Source of the DNA: Methyloprofundus sp.
Lineage (GTDB): Bacteria > Pseudomonadota > Gammaproteobacteria > Methylococcales > Methylomonadaceae
Reading direction: 5' to 3'
Assembly: GCA_028599115.1 (NCBI GenBank)
Contig: JAQRMR010000096.1
Span: 1 to 34,181 of the forward strand
Length of the DNA stretch: 34,181 nt
Part shown: positions 7,062-27,448 of the stretch, piece after piece
Layout of the letters: each line of letters opens with the position of its first letter
How positions within the stretch are numbered: the first letter of the stretch is position 1
Translations under genes and position numbers: made by a program
The notes under the pieces: model-generated
What the model was told of the DNA's origin: nothing
Seen by the model: only the letters and a program-made list of their open reading frames with translations
Database searches by the model: none

Positions 7062-7256
7062 GCCATCAGGATAGTAATAAAAATAAAAAAGCTAAGTAGA
7101 CTATAGCTTAGTGTGGTGGCATAGGTTAAAATTAAAAAGGTTATTTGTGATGAAATAAAATGGATTGTTTTAAGTAAGGGAATGCAAAAAATAAATCACA
7201 AAAATTTAGGTGCATTTAAGCAGTTTATTATTTTAATGAGAGGAGGCTACTCCGTG

Positions 7257-8417
7257 ATGAAAACACAGCAATTATTCGCAGGTCTTGTCCTAATGGCTTT
7301 AAGCCTTGGTACAGCGCAGGCGGACTATACACTCAATCTAATGGAAGGGGTGACATCAATCAGTCGTGATATTTATGGACTACATATGCTTGTATTATGG
7401 GTATGTGTATTTATAGGTATTGGTGTATTTGGTACGATGTTTTATTCCATCTACTTTCACCGTAAGTCTAGAGGCTTTAAAGCAGCTAACTTTCATGAAA
7501 GTGCAAAGGTTGAAATTATTTGGACAATTATTCCAACTGTCATTCTTATTTTATTAGCGATACCTGCAACTAGAGTAATGATCGAGATGGATGATGTGAC
7601 AGAGTCCGAAATGACAATTAAAGTCACGGGGTGGCAATGGAAATGGGAATATGAATATTTAGATAGTGGTGTTCATTTCTTTAGTAGTCTAGATGAAGCG
7701 AGTAATAAGGCTAGACAGTTAAACTCTGGCATTGACCCTCGTACCGTTGCTAATTACTTATTAGAAGTTGATAAACCTTTAGTTGTTCCAGTTAATACTA
7801 AGATTAGGTTTTTATTTACTTCGGCGGATGTAATTCATTCTTGGTGGGTGCCTGATTTAGGTTGGAAAAAAGATACAGTTCCAGGGTTTATAAATGAATC
7901 ATGGACTTCAGTTGAAAAAGCTGGGACTTATCGCGGCCAGTGTACTGAGCTTTGCGGGAAAGATCATGGATTTATGCCTATTGTGGTTATTGCAATGGAA
8001 AAACCTGATTATGAAAAATGGGTTGTTGAGCAAAAATCGCTAGCAGTAGCCAATGCTGATGCAGCAACAAAAGAATGGACAAAAGAAGGTTTAATTACAG
8101 CAGGCGAAAAAGTCTACGCAAGTAATTGTGCTTCATGTCATATGCCAGATGGAGCAGGATTAGCCGGTACATTCCCTGCAATTACAGCAAGTGCTGTGGT
8201 GACTGGTGATTTAAATGCACAGGTTGATTTAATGCTAAATGGTAAAGGAATGATGCCTGCTTTTGGACAAATGTTAGATCCTGTTGATTTTGCAGCAGTA
8301 TCAACATTTATTCGTAACGGGCTAGGAAATAGAGTAGGTGATGCAATTCAGCCATCTGCAGTTAAGGCGTTACAAGCAGCGATTCCAGAAATTGTTTATG
8401 ACGGCGATGATGAGTAA
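7257..8417 (+). CDS. coxB: Cytochrome c oxidase subunit II with fused cytochrome c
   Basis: A 386-aa subunit that takes electrons from cytochrome c through its CuA centre. A signal peptide (about 1-22, ending AQA) is followed by two membrane helices (about 42-66 and 86-108) and a periplasmic cupredoxin domain with CuA ligands H194, C229, E231, C233, H237 and M240. After a linker comes a cytochrome c domain with CASCH (291-295) and axial Met at 332 or 333 in GMMPAFG, so electrons can enter through a covalently attached heme. The start is ATG 7257 or GTG 7254: AGGAGG at 7241-7246 serves either. A longer in-frame ATG at 7182 would place this site inside the gene and is unlikely. First gene of the operon. 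Confidence 0.96.
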   Translation: MKTQQLFAGLVLMALSLGTAQADYTLNLMEGVTSISRDIYGLHMLVLWVCVFIGIGVFGTMFYSIYFHRKSRGFKAANFHESAKVEIIWTIIPTVILILLAIPATRVMIEMDDVTESEMTIKVTGWQWKWEYEYLDSGVHFFSSLDEASNKARQLNSGIDPRTVANYLLEVDKPLVVPVNTKIRFLFTSADVIHSWWVPDLGWKKDTVPGFINESWTSVEKAGTYRGQCTELCGKDHGFMPIVVIAMEKPDYEKWVVEQKSLAVANADAATKEWTKEGLITAGEKVYASNCASCHMPDGAGLAGTFPAITASAVVTGDLNAQVDLMLNGKGMMPAFGQMLDPVDFAAVSTFIRNGLGNRVGDAIQPSAVKALQAAIPEIVYDGDDE

Positions 8418-8477
8418 CCATCATTTTTCGTTATAAATAAATCGAATCTTTTTTTAGTATTAAACGAGGTATAAATT

Positions 8478-10091
8478 ATGTCTGCTGTAACAGCTGAACA
8501 TGAACACGATGATCATCACGATCACGGGCCTGAAAAAGGCTTTATGAGATGGATAGTTACGACTAACCATAAAGATATTGGTACGTTGTATTTGTTTTTT
8601 GCGCTAGCAATGTTTTTTGTTGGCGGAACAATGGCACTTATTATTCGTGCCGAGCTATTTGAGCCAGGTATGCAGTTTGTAACGCCTCAGTTCTTTAACT
8701 CAATGACGACAATGCATGCTTTAGTCATGGTATTTGGTGCAGTTATGCCGGCTTTTGTTGGTTTTGCTAACTGGTTAATCCCAATGATGATTGGTGCACC
8801 TGATATGGCGCTACCAAGAATGAATAACATGAGTTTTTGGATGTTAGTTGCTGGGGTACTTTTATTAGCAAGTACTCTATTTATGGAGGGTGGCGCGCCT
8901 GCATCAGGCTGGACCTTATATCCGCCACTAGTGTTGCAAACTGGTGCTGCACTACCATTTGCTATTTTCTCAGTGCATTTATTGGGTATCTCATCAATTA
9001 TGGGAGCAATTAATATTATTGCGACTATTTTTAATATGCGTGCACCAAAAATGACATTAATGAAAATGCCATTGTTTGTTTGGACTTGGTTGATTACTGC
9101 TTTCTTGTTGATTGCGATTATGCCGGTATTTGCTGGTGCGGTAACTATGTTGCTGACCGATCGTTTTTTCGATACGAGCTTTTTTAATGCTGCTGGTGGT
9201 GGTGACCCTGTACTTTATCAACATATTTTCTGGTTCTTCGGACATCCAGAAGTTTATGTCATGATTCTGCCTACATTTGGTATTGCTTCAACGATTATTC
9301 CTGTTTTTGCGCGTAAGCCATTATTTGGATATAGTTCAATGGTATATGCAACAGCAGCGATTGCATTCCTATCATTCATCGTTTGGGCGCATCACATGTT
9401 TACTGTGGGAATGCCAATATCCGGTGAGTTGTACTTTATGTATGCCACAATGTTGATTGCGATTCCAACCGGTGTGAAAATCTTCAACTGGACTGCAACT
9501 ATGTGGCGTGGATCAATGACATTTGAAACACCGATGTTATTTTCTATTGCTTTCGTGGTTTTGTTTACCTTAGGTGGTTTTACTGGATTGATGATGGCGA
9601 TGGCGCCAATTGATTTTCAATATCATGATACTTACTTTATTGTTGCTCATTTCCATTACACACTGGTACCTGCATCGGTCTTTATCTTGATGGCAGGTGG
9701 GTATTTCTGGCTACCTAAATGGACCGGAAATATGTATGACGAAAGACTAGGACGATTACATTTCTGGTTATCTGCAGTATCAGTAAATATTTTATTCTTT
9801 CCACAGCATTTCTTAGGTTTAGCAGGTATGCCACGTCGTATTCCTGATTATGCTGTGCAATTTGCTGATTGGAATATGGTATCTAGTGTCGGTGCTTTTA
9901 TTTTTGGTTTTAGCCAATTAATGTTTGTTTATATCGTTGTGAAAACAATTAAAGGTGGAACAGGCGAAAAAGTAACTGATGAAGTTTGGGAAGATGCAGC
10001 TAAGCATAGCTTAGAGTGGACACTACCTTCACCAGTTCCATACCATACGTTTGCAACGCCTCCTAAAGAAATTCCTACGGAACACTTTTAA
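8478..10091 (+). CDS. coxA: Cytochrome c oxidase subunit I
   Basis: A 537-aa catalytic subunit of an aa3-type heme-copper oxidase with about twelve membrane helices. Low-spin heme ligands are H80 (TMHALVMVF) and H393; the high-spin heme ligand is H391 (VAHFHYTLV). CuB ligands are H256, H305 and H306, with the cross-linked Tyr at 260 in GHPEVY; the Glu of that motif (E258) is the D-channel residue, marking an A1-type oxidase. A His- and Asp-rich N-terminus (residues 7-16) precedes the first helix. GAGG lies upstream of the ATG. Subunit I of this class normally carries heme A, which matters for the degenerate CtaA-like domain encoded downstream. Confidence 0.98.
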
Positions 10092-10145
10092 GGATTGAAT
10101 TAGCTTTGTCTATAGCTTGGGTTATGGACAAAGCTAAGCGTTAAT

Positions 10146-10241
10146 ATGAATATTAAAACTAAAAACAGACTGACAGTTGTAGCATTAACTATTGTTGTTG
10201 CTGTTATTTATGTTCTTGTTGTCATGAGGGTGACTTCTTAG
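10146..10241 (+). CDS. 31-aa single-helix protein between coxA and ctaG
   Basis: A very short frame, MNIKTKNRLT followed by a Val/Ile-rich helix and ending MRVTS. It has a basic N-terminus and one membrane helix (about 9-27). Its TAG overlaps the GTG start of ctaG by one base, an arrangement typical of translational coupling. Tiny one-helix proteins at this position in other proteobacterial cox operons are annotated as small cytochrome oxidase assembly proteins, so position and topology support that identity; sequence similarity cannot be judged at this length. The upstream ribosome-binding site is weak. Confidence 0.6.
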   Translation: MNIKTKNRLTVVALTIVVAVIYVLVVMRVTS

Positions 10242-10768
10242 TGAGCTCTGATTTAGAGGAGAAAAACAAAAAAACAGTCAGGGGTTTGCTTGTACTGGTT
10301 TTTCTTATGTTCTTATTTGCGGCGGCGTTAATACCTTTGTACGATATTTTGTGTGAAATAACGGGTATTAACGGTAAAACAAAAAAGGACTTAAGTTCTC
10401 TAAGTTATGAAATTGACTCAAATAGAAAAGTGACTTTAGAGTTTGTAACAACAGTAGGTGCGCGGACACGGTTAGCTTTTAAAGCGGATCAGTTTGAAAT
10501 TAAAGCACACCCTGGTGAAAAAATTACAGCTCGGTTTACAGCAAGAAATTTAACTAACAAACATATAACAGCTAAAGCTAGCCCTAGTTTTACACCAGGG
10601 GTAACTGCAGGATATGTTAAAAATATTGAATGTTTTTGTTTTTCTAATCAAGTGTTTAAACCCGGTGAAACAAAGCACTTAGAGGTGCAATTGGTCGTTT
10701 CTCCAAGTTTAGCGATAGATTATAAGCAGATAACATTCGGACTTACTTTTTACGATATTACTCATTAA
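10241..10768 (+). CDS. ctaG: Cytochrome c oxidase assembly protein CtaG/Cox11
   Basis: A 175-aa copper chaperone that delivers copper to the CuB site of subunit I. It has a short cytoplasmic N-terminus, one membrane helix (about 14-34) followed by the conserved IPLYDILC, and a periplasmic beta domain with the copper-binding motif ECFCF (C131, C133). GTG start at 10241, overlapping the stop of the preceding 31-aa frame; GAGGGTGA upstream can act as ribosome-binding site. Its place between coxA and coxC is standard for the proteobacterial operon. Confidence 0.95.
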   Translation: MSSDLEEKNKKTVRGLLVLVFLMFLFAAALIPLYDILCEITGINGKTKKDLSSLSYEIDSNRKVTLEFVTTVGARTRLAFKADQFEIKAHPGEKITARFTARNLTNKHITAKASPSFTPGVTAGYVKNIECFCFSNQVFKPGETKHLEVQLVVSPSLAIDYKQITFGLTFYDITH

Positions 10769-10778
10769 ATAGGGGATT

Positions 10779-11648
10779 ATGATGTCTACACAAGACGCAT
10801 ATTACATTCCACATAAGGCGACATGGCCTATTGCGGCAACCTTGGGATTAGTCACATCATTAGCAGGCTTCGCGAATTACCTAAATGGTAATGCGGCAGG
10901 GTCTACTTTTATGCTGATAGGGTTAGGGATTTTTATTTTAATGCTTGCAGGGTGGTTTACTATGCAGGCAACAGAAAGTGAAACAGGTATGTATAACCAT
11001 GGGGTAGGTGTTTCTTACCGTATGGGGATGATGTGGTTTATCTTTTCTGAAATTATGTTTTTTGCTGTGTTTTTTGGAACACTTTGGTACACACGTAATT
11101 TATCAATGGATTGGTTAGGTGGTATGGGTGATGGGCCAGGGCGTTCAACAGCAATGTTATGGCCTTCATTTGAGGCTGTATGGCCTACTAATGGTCCAGG
11201 AAATATTGGTGGCGAATTTGAGCCTATGGGAGCGTTTGGCTTACCATTATTGAATACATTATTATTATTAACCAGTGGTGTTACTTGTACTTGGGCGCAT
11301 CACGGGCTATTAGCAAACAATCGTTCTCAGTTAATTAAAGGTTTAGCTGCTACTGTTGGCTTAGGGTTTTTGTTTGTTGCATGTCAAGCTTTAGAGTATA
11401 TGGAAGCGTACCATGATATGGGGCTTACTTTAGGATCAGGAATTTACGGTTCAACTTTCTTTATGCTAACAGGCTTTCATGGATTTCATGTTTGTGTCGG
11501 AGCGATTATTCTGACTGTTGTATTATTCCGTAGCTGGAAAGGGCATTTTACACCAGAGAATCACTTTGCTTTTGAAGCAGCAGCTTGGTACTGGCATTTT
11601 GTTGATGTTGTATGGTTAGGCTTATTTATCTTTGTTTATATGATGTAA
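10779..11648 (+). CDS. coxC: Cytochrome c oxidase subunit III
   Basis: A 289-aa membrane protein with about seven helices that stabilises the subunit I proton uptake path. Family blocks include YYIPHKATWPI at the N-terminus, FSEIMFFAVFFGTLWY with the conserved Glu, NTLLLLTSGVTCTWAHH, GSTFFMLTGFHGFHV and WYWHFVDVVWLGLF near the end. Two ATG codons in tandem (10779 and 10782) follow an AGGGG site; the first is used here. It is the last gene of the oxidase structural operon, and a terminator follows 20 nt later. Confidence 0.97.
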   Translation: MMSTQDAYYIPHKATWPIAATLGLVTSLAGFANYLNGNAAGSTFMLIGLGIFILMLAGWFTMQATESETGMYNHGVGVSYRMGMMWFIFSEIMFFAVFFGTLWYTRNLSMDWLGGMGDGPGRSTAMLWPSFEAVWPTNGPGNIGGEFEPMGAFGLPLLNTLLLLTSGVTCTWAHHGLLANNRSQLIKGLAATVGLGFLFVACQALEYMEAYHDMGLTLGSGIYGSTFFMLTGFHGFHVCVGAIILTVVLFRSWKGHFTPENHFAFEAAAWYWHFVDVVWLGLFIFVYMM

Positions 11649-12735: not shown

Positions 12736-13479
12736 ATGCGCGTAAATTTCTTTAATTATCAATGGAAAATACATTGGCTGCCACTAGTGATTTTTATTGT
12801 TGTATTTAGTTTGTTGTTACGCCTAGGTTTTTGGCAGCTTAATAGAGCAGCTGAGAAAGAGCAGCTATTTAGCAATCAAGCCCAACGAATGCTTAGTAAG
12901 CCCGTTTATTTGCCTGAGTTATTAAAAGCGCAAGATGAAATAAAGTATCGCCCCGTTGTATTAAAAGGAAATTATGATGCAACGCATCAGCTTCTAGTGG
13001 ATAACCAAATAGTTAATGGAAAATTGGGTGCGTTTGTGATGACGCCATTTATATTGGCAGATAAGTCAGGAGCTGTGCTAGTAAATCGTGGCTGGATTGC
13101 TATGGATAAAGCAAGATTAAAAGTGCCTGATATCAGCTTGACGGCTAACCAGTATGAGATCTCGCTTATCGGTAGAGTTAATAACTTTCCCGCAGTAGGG
13201 ATGGTGCTAAAAGGTGCTGATGATTTAAGCGAGGGCTGGCCTTCTCAGGTACAAGTTATTAATTTAGATAAGCTGGCAACAAGATTTAATTATTCATTCT
13301 ATTCCTTTCAAGTGCAGCTACAGGCTGATCAGGCTAACGGGTATTTGAGAGACTGGAAAATTAACACGCGAATGCCCCCAGAAAAACATAGGGCGTATGC
13401 ATTTCAGTGGTTTGCATTGGCAGCTACTTTATTTTTTTTAACACTTTGGATAAGTTGTAAGACACATAAAAATGATTGA
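12736..13479 (+). CDS. SURF1 family oxidase assembly protein
   Basis: A 247-aa protein with the SURF1 layout: an N-terminal membrane helix (about 14-32) followed by LGFWQLNRAAEKE, a large periplasmic domain and a C-terminal helix (about 220-241). Family blocks include YRPVVLKGNYDATHQLLVDNQ, VLVNRGWIAMD and the closing HRAYAFQWFALA. SURF1 proteins help insert heme A into subunit I. GAGAAGG precedes the ATG. The gene overlaps the next one by eight bases and probably begins the transcript that runs through ftsX. Confidence 0.93.
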   Translation: MRVNFFNYQWKIHWLPLVIFIVVFSLLLRLGFWQLNRAAEKEQLFSNQAQRMLSKPVYLPELLKAQDEIKYRPVVLKGNYDATHQLLVDNQIVNGKLGAFVMTPFILADKSGAVLVNRGWIAMDKARLKVPDISLTANQYEISLIGRVNNFPAVGMVLKGADDLSEGWPSQVQVINLDKLATRFNYSFYSFQVQLQADQANGYLRDWKINTRMPPEKHRAYAFQWFALAATLFFLTLWISCKTHKND

Positions 13480-14068
13480 TCAGAAAAACAAAAACCAACG
13501 AACTATTATTATCGTTGCACTCATATCTATTGTTCCTTTTATTATTGCTTGGGGGTTAACTGAAAGTAGTACCTTTAAGCTTGCTTCGACTAATAAAGGA
13601 AATTTGATTGTCCCTATTTTGACCACAGAAAAAGCAGATTTCTCTGGTGTGGGTGCTTTTTCAGAAGAAAATATCTCTGAATTATCAGGGCACTGGGTGA
13701 TGTTGAATTATATTGTAGGGAATAAGTGCGATAAGCTTTGTATAGAATCTATACATGCAACTAAACAGATTCGTTTAATGTTAAATAAAGATTTGACTCG
13801 GGTTAGGCGTGCCGTTATTTTACAGGCAGGCAAGCAAGAGGAGAGTTTTTCGAGTTGGTGGGAAGCAGATTTACGTTTGTTGAAATTACAAGCAAGTCAA
13901 ACCTTGCTAGATAAAATTAAAGTATTTAAACCTGAAGGCATTGAAAATGGCAGTATCATTATTATGGACCCTTTAGGTAATTTAATGATGCACTATGATG
14001 CTAATTATGACCCGTATGCCGTTAAAAGCGACCTTAAAAAACTCCTTAGAATTTCACAAATAGGGTAA
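13472..14068 (+). CDS. Membrane-anchored thioredoxin-like oxidase assembly protein
   Basis: A 198-aa protein with one N-terminal helix (about 11-29) and a thioredoxin-fold-like periplasmic domain. It carries a CxxxC motif (CDKLC, C86 and C90), spaced as in SCO copper chaperones, and ends in a segment like those of small cox-cluster proteins found between SURF1 and ctaA in other gammaproteobacteria (MDPLGNLMMHYDANYDP, then a basic helix). The usual distal His of SCO proteins is not obvious, although H174 is near the expected region. A copper- or thiol-handling role in CuA assembly is inferred from position and motif. It overlaps SURF1 and lies 4 nt before the CtaA-FtsY fusion gene. Confidence 0.72.
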   Translation: MIDQKNKNQRTIIIVALISIVPFIIAWGLTESSTFKLASTNKGNLIVPILTTEKADFSGVGAFSEENISELSGHWVMLNYIVGNKCDKLCIESIHATKQIRLMLNKDLTRVRRAVILQAGKQEESFSSWWEADLRLLKLQASQTLLDKIKVFKPEGIENGSIIIMDPLGNLMMHYDANYDPYAVKSDLKKLLRISQIG

Positions 14069-14072
14069 TTAA

Positions 14073-15983
14073 ATGTTCAGACTATTTGCATTCTTATTGA
14101 GTTTTCTTGCTGTACTAGCAGTGAGTTCTAATTTTTACCAGTGGTCCATGGCCGCAATTAATAAGCAAAATTGTGATAATTTAACAGCTTGCTACACTCA
14201 GCTTGTCGATTTCGGTTTAGCCTCCATTGCACCAGTAAGTAGTCTTTATTATGTAAGTCTTGCTTTGATGTGCTTATTAATAGTGGGATTATTGATTGCT
14301 AGTTTTTCATTCTTTAAAACGAGAGTGAAGTTACTGTTATCAGCACTGGTTTTATTGCTGTTGATTGTTGGGCAGTTGTTGGTAGAGCTGAATGCTCATT
14401 TATTCATAAGTTCTGCGCTGACATACTTTATTCAATACATAGTCAATGTGTTAATTGCTGGAATTGCTATTTATATGGCAGTTCGTAGTCAATTAAGCTA
14501 TGTGAAAAATGATAGGCCATCAAAATCTTATTTATTACAAATAGGAATGGGGCTTTTAAGTTGTCAGTTACTTGTTGGTGCGTGGTTAACGGCTAATCAT
14601 GCTGGCTTGGTGTGTTCGGGGTTTCCTCAGTGTAATGGTTCTTGGTGGCCTGTTGCTGATTATCGTTACGCTTTTGATTTATTTTCGCCTTTATCTTTCA
14701 GTGCAAAAGTCGCTGTCAGTTGGGTGCATCGATTATTTGTTGTTGTTAATTTTGTCACGTTAACTTGGGTGTTGCTATTAGCTACTCAGCAGAAAATAAA
14801 AAAAGTACGCTGGCTGGCAACGACGGGTAGCTTTCTGCTATTGCTATTGATAGCAAGCGGTGTCGTTAGTGTAAAAACGGCAATGCCTGTTTGGCTAATT
14901 GCAGCGCATAGTATTATCGCTGTTTTATTAATCATCGACTTGCTGCTAATTCATTTTTATTCTCGGTATACGAGAAAAGATTTAACTGATGAAAGTGAGC
15001 GCGAAGTTCAGGATAGTCCAAGTGAGCCTCTGGAAGAGCCTGAAGTAGAAGTAGTTGAGTCAATTTATGGACGGTTAAAGTCTCAGTTAGGCAAAACGCG
15101 CGGTGGTTTTGGTGCTGTTTTGTCAGGTTTGTCTTTAAGTAACAGAAGAATTGATCAAGAGTTACTTGAGGAAATTGAGACTAGTTTATTGGTTGCAGAT
15201 GTTGGCTTGGATTTAACGACAGAAATTATTGCTCAACTGGAAGAAAAGGTTGAAAAGCATGAGTTACAGGATGCAGCAGCATTAACGGGCTTGTTGAAAA
15301 CTCAGTTGCTAGAAATATTACAACCAGTGAGTCAGCCTTTAGTGATTCCTAAGCAGGATGGGCCTTATGTAATTTTAGTTGTGGGGATTAATGGGGTAGG
15401 AAAAACGACAACAATTGGTAAGTTAGCGCAAAGGCTGCAAGGAGAAGGGCATAGTGTTATGTTGGCTGCCGGTGATACATTTAGAGCTGCAGCAGTTGAG
15501 CAATTGCAAGTTTGGGGAGAGCGCAATAATATTCATGTGGTTGCTCAGCATACGGGGGCAGATTCCGCATCAGTTATTTTTGATGGCGTTGAGTCAGCAC
15601 GAGCGAAAGGGGTTGATGTGTTAATTGCAGATACTGCTGGAAGACTGCATACTAAAGCTAATTTAATGGAAGAGTTAAAGAAAGTTAAACGCATTATTTC
15701 GCGGATTGATGAATCAGCACCACATGAGGTTTTGTTGGTTTTGGATGCGGGAACAGGACAAAATGCCTTGTCCCAGGCTGAGCATTTTAATAAAACTGTC
15801 GATTTAACTGGGATTGCACTGACTAAGTTAGATGGAACAGCAAAGGGTGGAATTATTTTCGCGCTAGCAAAGCAGCAGGGAATTCCAATCCGATTTTTAG
15901 GCGTGGGTGAAGGTATTAATGATTTGCAGGATTTTAATGCTGAAAATTTTATTGATGCGCTTTTTATGGAAGATGAGAAATAA
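14073..15983 (+). CDS. ftsY: CtaA-like membrane domain fused to FtsY (SRP receptor)
   Basis: One uninterrupted 636-aa frame. Residues 1-295 form about eight membrane helices in the CtaA (heme A synthase) layout, with Cys pairs C34/C40 and C181/C187 and the block TANHAGLVCSGFPQCNG-WWP. C-terminal-half His ligands H219 (VSWVHRLF) and H279 (IAAHSII) are kept. The N-terminal half has no His or Glu in helix 2 and no His at 110-175, so the catalytic-half ligands are missing. Residues 303-330 are an acidic linker. Residues 331-636 are a complete FtsY NG GTPase: GINGVGKTTT (438-447), DTFRAAA (468-474), DTAGR (520-524), TKLDG (584-588) and a normal FtsY ending. There is no in-frame ATG between residues 271 and 463; a TTG at codon 290 lacks a ribosome-binding site. 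Followed by ftsE after 5 nt. Confidence 0.9.
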   Translation: MFRLFAFLLSFLAVLAVSSNFYQWSMAAINKQNCDNLTACYTQLVDFGLASIAPVSSLYYVSLALMCLLIVGLLIASFSFFKTRVKLLLSALVLLLLIVGQLLVELNAHLFISSALTYFIQYIVNVLIAGIAIYMAVRSQLSYVKNDRPSKSYLLQIGMGLLSCQLLVGAWLTANHAGLVCSGFPQCNGSWWPVADYRYAFDLFSPLSFSAKVAVSWVHRLFVVVNFVTLTWVLLLATQQKIKKVRWLATTGSFLLLLLIASGVVSVKTAMPVWLIAAHSIIAVLLIIDLLLIHFYSRYTRKDLTDESEREVQDSPSEPLEEPEVEVVESIYGRLKSQLGKTRGGFGAVLSGLSLSNRRIDQELLEEIETSLLVADVGLDLTTEIIAQLEEKVEKHELQDAAALTGLLKTQLLEILQPVSQPLVIPKQDGPYVILVVGINGVGKTTTIGKLAQRLQGEGHSVMLAAGDTFRAAAVEQLQVWGERNNIHVVAQHTGADSASVIFDGVESARAKGVDVLIADTAGRLHTKANLMEELKKVKRIISRIDESAPHEVLLVLDAGTGQNALSQAEHFNKTVDLTGIALTKLDGTAKGGIIFALAKQQGIPIRFLGVGEGINDLQDFNAENFIDALFMEDEK

Positions 15984-15988
15984 AGCGT

Positions 15989-16636
15989 ATGCTTAGCTTT
16001 AACCATGTTTTTAAGCGTTACACTACAAATGATGCATTGGTAGATGTTAATTTTCATCTCAATAAAGGTGAGATTGCATTTTTGACAGGGCATTCAGGCG
16101 CAGGAAAAAGCACGGTATTGCGTTTGCTGGCTGTTATGGAACGCTGTTCAAGAGGGCAGATGTTGTTTGACGGGCAGAATTTGTGTCGCTTACGTGAGGA
16201 AGATATTCCTGCTTTTCGCAGAAAATTAGGGCTTATATTTCAGGATTATAAATTACTTCAAGATCGTACTGTTTTCGATAATGTTGCTTTACCTTTGTTG
16301 GTTTCAGGTGTAGGGCATTATGAGATAGCTAGACGAGTGCGTGCGGCATTAGATAAGGTGGGCTTGTTGGGGAAAGAAAAAAAATACCCTCTCGCGTTAT
16401 CGGGGGGAGAGCAGCAACGAGTCGGAATTGCTAGGGCGGTGGTTAATAAACCCCTATTAATTCTAGCAGATGAACCAACGGGTAACTTAGACCCTGAACT
16501 GTCGATTGAAATTATGCGTTTATTTGAACAATTTCAGCAGGTTGGTGTCTGTGTATTAATTGCAACTCACGAGGCAAGCATTGTTGCAGCAACTCAACAT
16601 AAAGTGTTGCAATTGGATCATGGTCGAATGTTGTAG
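15989..16636 (+). CDS. ftsE: Cell division ATP-binding protein FtsE
   Basis: A 215-aa ABC ATPase that works with FtsX at the division septum to control peptidoglycan hydrolases. Walker A is GHSGAGKST (34-42), the Q-loop is in LIFQDYKLL (about 82-90), the signature is LSGGEQQR (137-144) and Walker B is [13 protein letters not shown] (156-168), with the H-loop in ATHE. It starts 5 nt after the fusion gene stop and ends 8 nt before ftsX, the conserved ftsY-ftsE-ftsX order. No strong ribosome-binding site is seen, so translational coupling to the upstream gene is likely. Confidence 0.97.
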
Positions 16637-16644
16637 CAGGCCTT

Positions 16645-17637
16645 ATGAAAGTAGCTAAAAAGAAAAAAATAAAGAATATAAGGGGTAGGAGAAAAGAGCC
16701 TCTTAAATCTCCTAATGAGCGAAAAAGGCTGTTATTTTCCTGGCAATATAACGCACTATTTTGCAGTGCAAGGCGGTTATTAAAAACACCAGCATCATCG
16801 GCGATGACAATCTTGGTGATTGCCATTGCAATGTCACTAGCGGGAGGTTTTTATGTTGCCTTGAGTAATAGCCAACATGTGTTTGATGACGTGCAAATGG
16901 GTAGGCAGATTTCTCTTTATTTGTATGAGCATGTAAATGATGATGAAGCAATGCTTTTAGCGGGGCAATTAAAGAATAAAAAGCAGGTTGCTAAGGTTGC
17001 TTATATATCCAAACAGCAAGCGTTAGATGAGTTTCAAATGTATAGTGGTTTTAGTGGGGCATTAAATGCTTTGGCAAACAACCCTTTGCCAAGAGTGATT
17101 CAGGTCTACCCGGAAACTAAATTCAGTGAAAGTATTGATTTTGAAACTTTGCTTCAGTTTTTAGAGGCTCAGCCGGCTGTAGAATTTGCACAAATGGATA
17201 TGCAGTGGGTTTCAAGGCTGCAAGCAATGATGGGGATAGTACATAATTTTAGTCATGCTTTAACTGTATTGTTAATTATTGCAGTGATACTAATAACAGG
17301 TAATAGCATACGTTTGGAGCTGCAAACACGGCGAGATGAGATTAGGGTAGAAAAATTGGTTGGTGCGAGTAATGCTTATATATACAGGCCGTTTTTATAT
17401 ACTGGTTTTTGGTATGGTTTTTTGGCGGGTGTTTTAGCCTGGCTTATTATTGCTGGCATTGTTTTGCTGTTAGAGTCTCCTGTCGAGCAATTGTTGGCGC
17501 TTTACCATAGCGCTTACCAGTTACGTTTTATGGGCTTAAATGACTCTATTGTATTTATTATTCTATCCTCATTGCTTGGGGTTTTGGGGGCGCTTATTGC
17601 GGCAAGTCAGCAAATAAAAAATATAACAAATTATTAA
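16645..17637 (+). CDS. ftsX: Cell division protein FtsX
   Basis: A 330-aa membrane partner of FtsE. A strongly basic cytoplasmic N-terminus (residues 1-30) is followed by helix 1 (about 52-74), a periplasmic domain of about 130 residues that would contact an activator of cell wall hydrolases, then three more helices; GNSIRLELQTRRDEI and KLVGASNAYIYRPFLYTG are the family blocks between them. In many gammaproteobacteria rpoH follows ftsX; here it does not, and hfq is next after 179 nt. Confidence 0.95.
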   Translation: MKVAKKKKIKNIRGRRKEPLKSPNERKRLLFSWQYNALFCSARRLLKTPASSAMTILVIAIAMSLAGGFYVALSNSQHVFDDVQMGRQISLYLYEHVNDDEAMLLAGQLKNKKQVAKVAYISKQQALDEFQMYSGFSGALNALANNPLPRVIQVYPETKFSESIDFETLLQFLEAQPAVEFAQMDMQWVSRLQAMMGIVHNFSHALTVLLIIAVILITGNSIRLELQTRRDEIRVEKLVGASNAYIYRPFLYTGFWYGFLAGVLAWLIIAGIVLLLESPVEQLLALYHSAYQLRFMGLNDSIVFIILSSLLGVLGALIAASQQIKNITNY

Positions 17638-27252: not shown

Positions 27253-27328
27253 GCTGATGTAGCTCAATCGGTAGAGCAGCTGATTTGTAATCAGCAGGTC
27301 GCGGGTTCGATTCCCATCATCAGCTCCA
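27253..27328 (+). tRNA. tRNA-Thr (UGU), copy 1
   Basis: A 76-nt tRNA with encoded CCA. The acceptor stem GCTGATG / CATCAGC is perfect, the D-arm is GCTC-AATCGGTA-GAGC, the anticodon stem is GCTGA / TCAGC and the loop is TTTGTAA with anticodon TGT, reading ACA (and other ACN by wobble). The T-stem GCGGG / CCCAT contains a G-U pair at 49-65 and a C-A mismatch at 50-64. The base before CCA is T. Confidence 0.96.
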
Positions 27329-27372
27329 TATTTACAACACTCTTAAGGATAAGGGTGAAAAACCAGCTTTTA

Positions 27373-27448
27373 GCTGATGTAGCTCAATCGGTAGAGCAGC
27401 TGATTTGTAATCAGCAGGTCGCGGGTTCGATTCCCATCATCAGCTCCA
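27373..27448 (+). tRNA. tRNA-Thr (UGU), copy 2
   Basis: Identical to copy 1 in all 76 positions, including the T-stem C-A mismatch and T73. The two are separated by 44 nt and should be made as one transcript from the promoter at 27212-27240. Confidence 0.96.

Follow-up and report, generated by a model that had tools for sequence, protein, structure and literature searches.

We analysed a 34,181-nucleotide stretch of DNA, called the window here, that forms positions 1 to 34,181 of contig JAQRMR010000096.1 in the Methyloprofundus sp. assembly GCA_028599115.1. In it, a single gene, ctaA::ftsY, joins a membrane domain of the heme A synthase family to FtsY, the receptor of the signal recognition particle (SRP). 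The gene is one uninterrupted frame and the only ftsY of its genome, and it recurs across nearly the whole order Methylococcales in the genomes that we searched. The catalytic residues of the CtaA part are lost in this genome, and the heme-b ligands and a pair of cysteines are near-invariant among the fusions. From these sequences we consider it probable that the clade-wide fusion is the sole FtsY of its hosts, permanently anchored in the membrane by a domain predicted to hold heme b between His219 and His279. For the lineage of the window, the best reading is that the membrane domain was retained as a predicted heme-b protein and is no longer a heme A synthase. The gene and its parts are listed below, with CtaA positions in Bacillus subtilis numbering.

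14073..15983, + strand: ctaA::ftsY fusion gene, 636 codons with a stop-free translation; relatives have the same frame
14073..14966, + strand: CtaA/COX15-derived membrane domain, residues 1-298, eight predicted helices
14073..14495, + strand: N-half (the substrate or catalytic half in CtaA), residues 1-141, decayed
14238..14240, + strand: Ser56, where CtaA has the catalytic Glu57
14247..14249, + strand: Tyr59, where CtaA has the heme ligand His60
14433..14435, + strand: Gln121, where CtaA has the heme ligand His123
14496..14966, + strand: C-half (the heme-b half in CtaA), residues 142-298, retained
14613..14633, + strand: Cys181...Cys187 pair (C191/C197 position) in a predicted periplasmic loop, each kept in 85 of 87 fusions
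14727..14732, + strand: His219-Arg220 (H216-R217 position), predicted heme-b ligand and its neighbour, aligned to 6a2j
14907..14909, + strand: His279 (H278 position), predicted heme-b ligand, aligned to 6a2j
14967..15062, + strand: short acidic linker, residues 299-330, with predicted local distance difference test scores (pLDDT) below 50 at 305-327
15063..15095, + strand: alphaN1-like amphipathic helix, residues 331-341, a helix in AlphaFold and aligned to E. coli FtsY
15096..15980, + strand: FtsY N and G domains

An initial annotation of this DNA had read the frame as an in-frame fusion of a CtaA-like protein with FtsY, and this holds: all 636 residues are free of stops, and both parts have Pfam and NCBIfam matches. 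COX15-CtaA (PF02628) matches at residues 65-288 with 59.8 bits (cut-off 29.9), which makes the protein a member of the CtaA/COX15 family, and SRP54_N and the SRP54 GTPase match at 350-412 and 431-631 (6e-76), respectively. The NCBIfam model for ftsY, TIGR00064, scores 358.8 bits against a cut-off of 260.7. The FtsY part has the NG fold and the GTPase motifs, and its N domain is preceded by a predicted amphipathic alphaN1 helix in which R334, L335, Q338, and L339 are invariant in A1 (59 sequences).

AlphaFold predicts eight long helices within residues 2-298 of the window protein, followed by a low-confidence linker at 305-327. Comparison of the full-length model was dominated by FtsY structures, so we folded the CtaA domain separately; the resulting model has the eight-helix fold of heme A synthase. 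A search of the PDB with the CtaA part as a single sequence gave no match, and a search with its profile matched B. subtilis CtaA (6a2j). The earlier description of a heme A synthase-like domain stands as to the eight-helix family fold. The domain is, however, an incomplete heme A synthase, Glu57, His60, and His123 being gone, and a working enzyme in this genome is not supported. Loops taken as cytoplasmic carry nine Lys or Arg residues versus one in loops taken as periplasmic. Because of these counts and the even number of helices, both ends of the membrane domain are predicted to be cytoplasmic, which is what FtsY requires.

Looking for the same architecture in related genomes, we found it across the order. 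Among 40 relatives, 31 share the long FtsY frame, at 620-864 residues, which excludes a missed stop or frameshift behind the join. When species genomes were scanned, the long frame turned up in loci titled Methylobacter, Methylomicrobium, Methylotuvimicrobium (L053 of Methylotuvimicrobium buryatense 5G among them), Methylovulum, Crenothrix, and mussel symbionts; FtsY frames in Kangiella loci were only 410-484 residues. We name the order after these titles, and 15 CtaA parts from the order genomes are identical to parts of the named loci. One locus (L025), a methanotroph-type ctaA::ftsY 74% identical to the window, lies on a contig titled Bathymodiolus brooksi thiotrophic gill symbiont, probably through a binning mix-up. 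An FtsY match was present in 229 of the 234 order genomes that are at least 90% complete. Among the 150 matches listed, 10 came from family f7, in frames of 343-367 residues, and among the 140 listed from outside f7, 138 were in frames of 558-723 residues and 2 were cut by contig ends. In families f7 and f8, ctaA and ftsY are separate genes. Thirty genomes added from thinly covered genera yielded 29 frames of 567-878 residues and one of 292 (G088). We also searched 370 genomes of the class; among the matches listed, both halves were covered only in four of the five order members sampled, and all listed matches from outside the order started at or beyond residue 301 of the 698-residue query.

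In an FtsY tree of 64 rows, thinned at 93% identity and built without L017, L046, L066, and L133, all 51 fused rows formed one clade (Shimodaira-Hasegawa-like approximate likelihood ratio test, SH-aLRT, 96, quick method), with the unfused members of the order outside it. Locus L133 (G107:C246), from a 75%-complete genome, has an in-frame TGA in the last membrane helix, so that CtaA and FtsY read as two frames, through either a sequencing error or a real split.

To follow individual residues we used a main sample of 87 fusions from 40 genera, drawn mainly through the FtsY half. Sixty loci spread over genera, mostly taken from FtsY matches and a few by coordinates, left 58 after L220 (contig end) and L169 (assembly gap in the N-half) were dropped; 30 genomes added for missing genera, including g8, less L254, completed the sample. 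The run of N inside the fused gene of L169, and of L046, which has the same sequence, mimics a deletion of the N-half and is an assembly gap; the piece of L046 before the gap keeps the catalytic motif. An earlier set of 101 fused rows was biased by its sources, a pattern scan that included PQCNGSWW and loci ranked by CtaA score. It counts the window twice (L001, L003), has 15 CtaA parts identical to those of the FtsY-drawn set, and is not additive with it.

According to the available text of PMC12808453, the N-half of CtaA holds the heme o substrate site, with His60, His123, and, as the proposed catalytic residue, Glu57, whereas the site of the heme-b cofactor, with His216 and His278, is in the C-half; the C-terminal cysteine pair is described as dispensable for activity. 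The window has lost the three N-half residues and kept both heme-b ligands and the cysteine pair. Across the 87 fusions, Glu57 was kept in 17, His60 in 58, His123 in 55, Cys35 in 60, and Cys42 in 59, positions in strongly decayed N-halves being dependent on the alignment. In the C-half, Cys191, Cys197, His216, and His278 were kept in 85 each and Arg217 in 81, and among the first 58 fusions, all 58 retained the C-half residues. Conservation reached at least 95% in seven columns of the CtaA part, all of them in the C-half (G169, C181, P185, C187, H219, L256, and H279 in the window). The biased 101 rows gave a similar picture, with Glu57 in 47, His60 in 71, and His123 in 68, versus 98 or 99 for the C-half residues. 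A set of Glu57-less copies, reduced to 42 by dereplication at 80% identity and still containing the gapped L046 type, kept 15 C-half columns but one N-half column at 90% or above, out of the columns invariant in unfused CtaA. At least eight changes of state fall on the tree for the catalytic set, versus three for the heme-b set, each of these three in a single row. The unfused CtaA proteins of f7 and f8 keep all these residues in 14 of 14 compared. Since the conserved part is the heme-b half of the enzyme, a role for heme gains support. Retention of this half is near-strict and goes beyond the needs of an anchor, which suggests that the receptor in most lineages is a heme protein, with either a structural or a regulatory heme.

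Several observations weigh against a heme-b anchor on an intact, sole FtsY. Conservation of His, Cys, and Gly could be explained by packing alone, and FtsY might be released from the fusion by proteolysis. In G088 (L254, G088:C243), the FtsY match lies in the 292-residue frame, covers model positions 2-228 of 279, and has no CtaA part; the gene may be broken, truncated, or unfused. The stand-alone CtaA of the window's own genome runs off the end of contig C119, which leaves it cut rather than shown to be broken. Finally, three of the 87 fusions, G024, G269 (genus g8), and G297 (genus g36), have lost heme-b ligands or cysteines, and L083 also lacks ligands or cysteines of the site and keeps its membrane domain. 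G269 has the same sequence as L084 and G297 the same as L085.

L083:3506-5491, L084:3368-5068, L085:3836-5815, and also L235 (G024): fusions with loss of ligands or cysteines of the heme-b site

The losses in g8, g36, and L083 indicate that the heme-b site can go while the fusion stays. These losses would fit a simpler role, in which the domain only holds FtsY at the membrane, its histidines and cysteines serve packing, and heme is absent. L084 is also in keeping with such a role, as the CtaA profile does not match it although some six hydrophobic helices still precede its FtsY. The same holds for the report, in the accessible part of PMC5533587, that E. coli can make do with engineered anchors whose sequence is unrelated. 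However, an anchor of this kind leaves the choice of residues unexplained: 67 of the 70 copies without Glu57 retain both histidines and both cysteines, at a mean pairwise identity of the C-half of only 0.42 (59 rows). We judge such a plain anchor unlikely. In two further genomes of g8, G268 (L225) and G270 (L234), the histidines and cysteines are kept and Arg217 is replaced by Val or His. Genus g34 (L195, L196, L197, and L224) has fusions of 565-582 residues that keep the C-half residues in all four; L195 and L196 have about six hydrophobic helices versus eight, the N-half apparently having gone from four to about two with the C-half whole.

As a heme-b anchor, the membrane domain would replace the loose N-terminal membrane contact made by the A domain of E. 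coli FtsY, and the retained alphaN1 would still make a regulated contact once SRP arrives. A further step, in which heme b and the periplasmic Cys181/Cys187 pair sense heme supply or redox state and gate FtsY, so that co-translational insertion of membrane proteins is tied to heme and respiration, is tentative and, in our view, somewhat unlikely.

We then asked how many FtsY proteins the genome encodes and whether the fusion is made as one protein. The window's genome has two SRP54-GTPase matches, the fusion protein and one matching Ffh; this search found no second ftsY, leaving the fusion as the sole FtsY besides Ffh. The claim that no internal ATG could start a separate FtsY was borne out, with no in-frame ATG or GTG in the stretch scanned, residues 288 to 362 of the protein. 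Three TTG codons occur there (residues 290, 350, and 353), none with a Shine-Dalgarno-like site. Across 100 fused genes, the region from the last membrane helix to the N domain lacks ATG in 82 and has an ATG with a Shine-Dalgarno-like site in one; any start with such a site occurs in 13.

These counts bear on whether FtsY is made free of the membrane domain, through proteolytic cleavage or through translation from an internal start, with the join coupling expression only. FtsY outside the order does without this domain, among the class matches listed, at least one ATG, GTG, or TTG lies in the inter-domain region of 95 of the 100 genes (all three are absent in 5), and proteolysis would be invisible in sequence. 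An internal start is rejected, however, as none is conserved across the 100 genes. Release in general is also opposed by selection on the membrane domain. Over 53 pairs of copies without Glu57, median omega was 0.27 for the N-half, 0.15 for the C-half, and 0.05 for FtsY. The pairs are not independent, and medians alone are given because some values from pairs of high-GC genomes are inflated. These low values indicate that the membrane domain is under purifying selection even without Glu57, and we regard release of FtsY as improbable.

The fused protein could, alternatively, have remained a heme A synthase and serve as FtsY at the same time. Five genomes (G028 and G254-G257) have no CtaA match besides it, and all five keep the full catalytic set; G089 (83% complete) resembles them. 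A bifunctional protein is likely in those five from the residues kept, and they are the best candidates for one. As an account of the fusion generally it is very unlikely: in the window, Glu57, His60, and His123 are replaced by Ser, Tyr, and Gln, Glu57 is absent in 70 of the 87 fusions, and more than one CtaA match occurs in 66 of the genomes behind those 70. Of the remaining four, the single match in G024 is a stand-alone copy, the place of that in G269 is unlisted, and G038 (85% complete) and G253 (92%) have a single CtaA match though their fused copy lacks Glu57.

All 13 stand-alone copies compared have Asn in place of His60, and the second cysteine pair is missing from them. The available part of PMC12808453 describes either His or Asn at position 60, and that of PMC8239418 includes a class with H60N, so the stand-alone copies may well be functional enzymes. 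Three of them (L150:1032-2015, L114:1471-2466, and L148:865-1530) lie amid genes that, by appearance, are unlike oxidase genes.

An assembly or annotation artefact, for which the window offers nothing and other loci only the L133 stop and the L046/L169 gap, deserves practically no weight, as the frame recurs in more than 100 loci, including single-contig genomes and named isolates.

Methane oxidation was rejected as a discriminator of fused from unfused genomes. PmoA-family genes (PF02461) occur in both alike: in 8 of 10 unfused f7 genomes, 2 of 2 unfused f8 genomes, and 25 of 28 fused genomes.

Gene order suggests a possible origin. In unfused G036 (L152) and G031 (L151), ctaA has a UbiA-family gene (probably cyoE) as its neighbour, and the two are oriented convergently to a group of ftsY, ftsX, and a sigma-factor gene that is a few kilobases away. 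The fused order, in the window, is SURF1, a PA0111-like gene, ctaA::ftsY, ftsE, and ftsX, and in L083 and L085 the next gene is one that we take to be sigma-factor-like. The fusion probably arose once, through a local inversion that would have placed ftsY behind ctaA. Its first product would have been a working heme A synthase and receptor, as it seemingly still is where it is the only CtaA. With a second CtaA present, the catalytic half would decay, and the heme-b half would persist in nearly all lineages through its use by the receptor, if only to fold the anchor. The order preserves such steps: unfused genes, fused intact enzymes as the only CtaA, fused intact enzymes beside a second CtaA, fusions whose catalytic half has decayed or shrunk with the heme-b half kept, and a few without the heme-b site. 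The initial annotation described an A domain reduced to about 30 residues behind the anchor. Shortening through the fusion is contradicted by unfused FtsY proteins of the order; these have only 339 and 346 residues, so the short A domain predates the fusion.

Fusion of NG to an unrelated membrane polypeptide was reportedly described by Zelazny in 1997. E. coli FtsY (PDB 2yhs, 7o9h) has a long acidic A domain and a peripheral membrane contact, whereas the fusion has an integral eight-helix anchor. According to the available part of PMC2780400, E. coli FtsY is mostly at the membrane, attached only peripherally, and is needed for growth. E. coli mutants without the loose N-terminal contact are rescued by a fusion of FtsY to a membrane helix if alphaN1 is present, and in 3L-Pf3-FtsY a foreign domain likewise holds FtsY permanently in the membrane (PMC5533587, in the text accessible). 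The natural fusion matches the rescued design, with a permanent anchor and a conserved alphaN1, but differs from engineered tethers in being natural and clade-wide and in keeping a predicted heme-b site in the anchor. The window copy differs from B. subtilis heme A synthase CtaA (6a2j) by the loss of Glu57, His60, and His123 and by the complete FtsY that follows it at the C terminus. CtaA-CtaB (heme O synthase) fusions, described in the available parts of PMC12808453 and PMC8239418, also join a CtaA-family domain to another protein; there it is paired with the second enzyme of heme A biosynthesis, here with a protein-targeting receptor.

In agreement with the initial annotation, we found no description of a CtaA-FtsY fusion in the full-text literature, a search that most subscription journals fall outside. 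The architecture is already annotated under the database name 'cytochrome oxidase assembly family protein/cell division protein FtsY [Methylocaldum marinum]'. A JGI name, 'fused signal recognition particle receptor', is presumably the general name for FtsY and is not evidence. With the only FtsY of almost an entire order held in the membrane by what was once a respiratory enzyme, these bacteria would serve as a natural experiment on whether FtsY must at any time detach from the membrane. The fusion also raises the possibility of heme control over protein targeting.

The genes around the fusion in the window are as follows.

7182..11648, + strand: coxB, coxA, cox11-like, and cox3 (cytochrome c oxidase), upstream; the cox3 match is below the families' cut-offs
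12736..13479, + strand: SURF1-like gene, upstream, 113.8 bits, below the model cut-off of 190
13472..14068, + strand: PA0111-family redox protein, directly upstream, a weak match of 48.9 bits (family cut-off 230)
15989..16636, + strand: ftsE, directly downstream, TIGR02673 at 278.7 bits (cut-off 264.85)
16645..17637, + strand: ftsX, TIGR00439 at 315.7 bits (cut-off 255)

The oxidase subunit II at 7182-8417 bears a C-terminal cytochrome c domain (PF13442). Farther along the window, at 27253-27448, is a tandem pair of tRNA-Thr(TGT) genes with equal Rfam scores.
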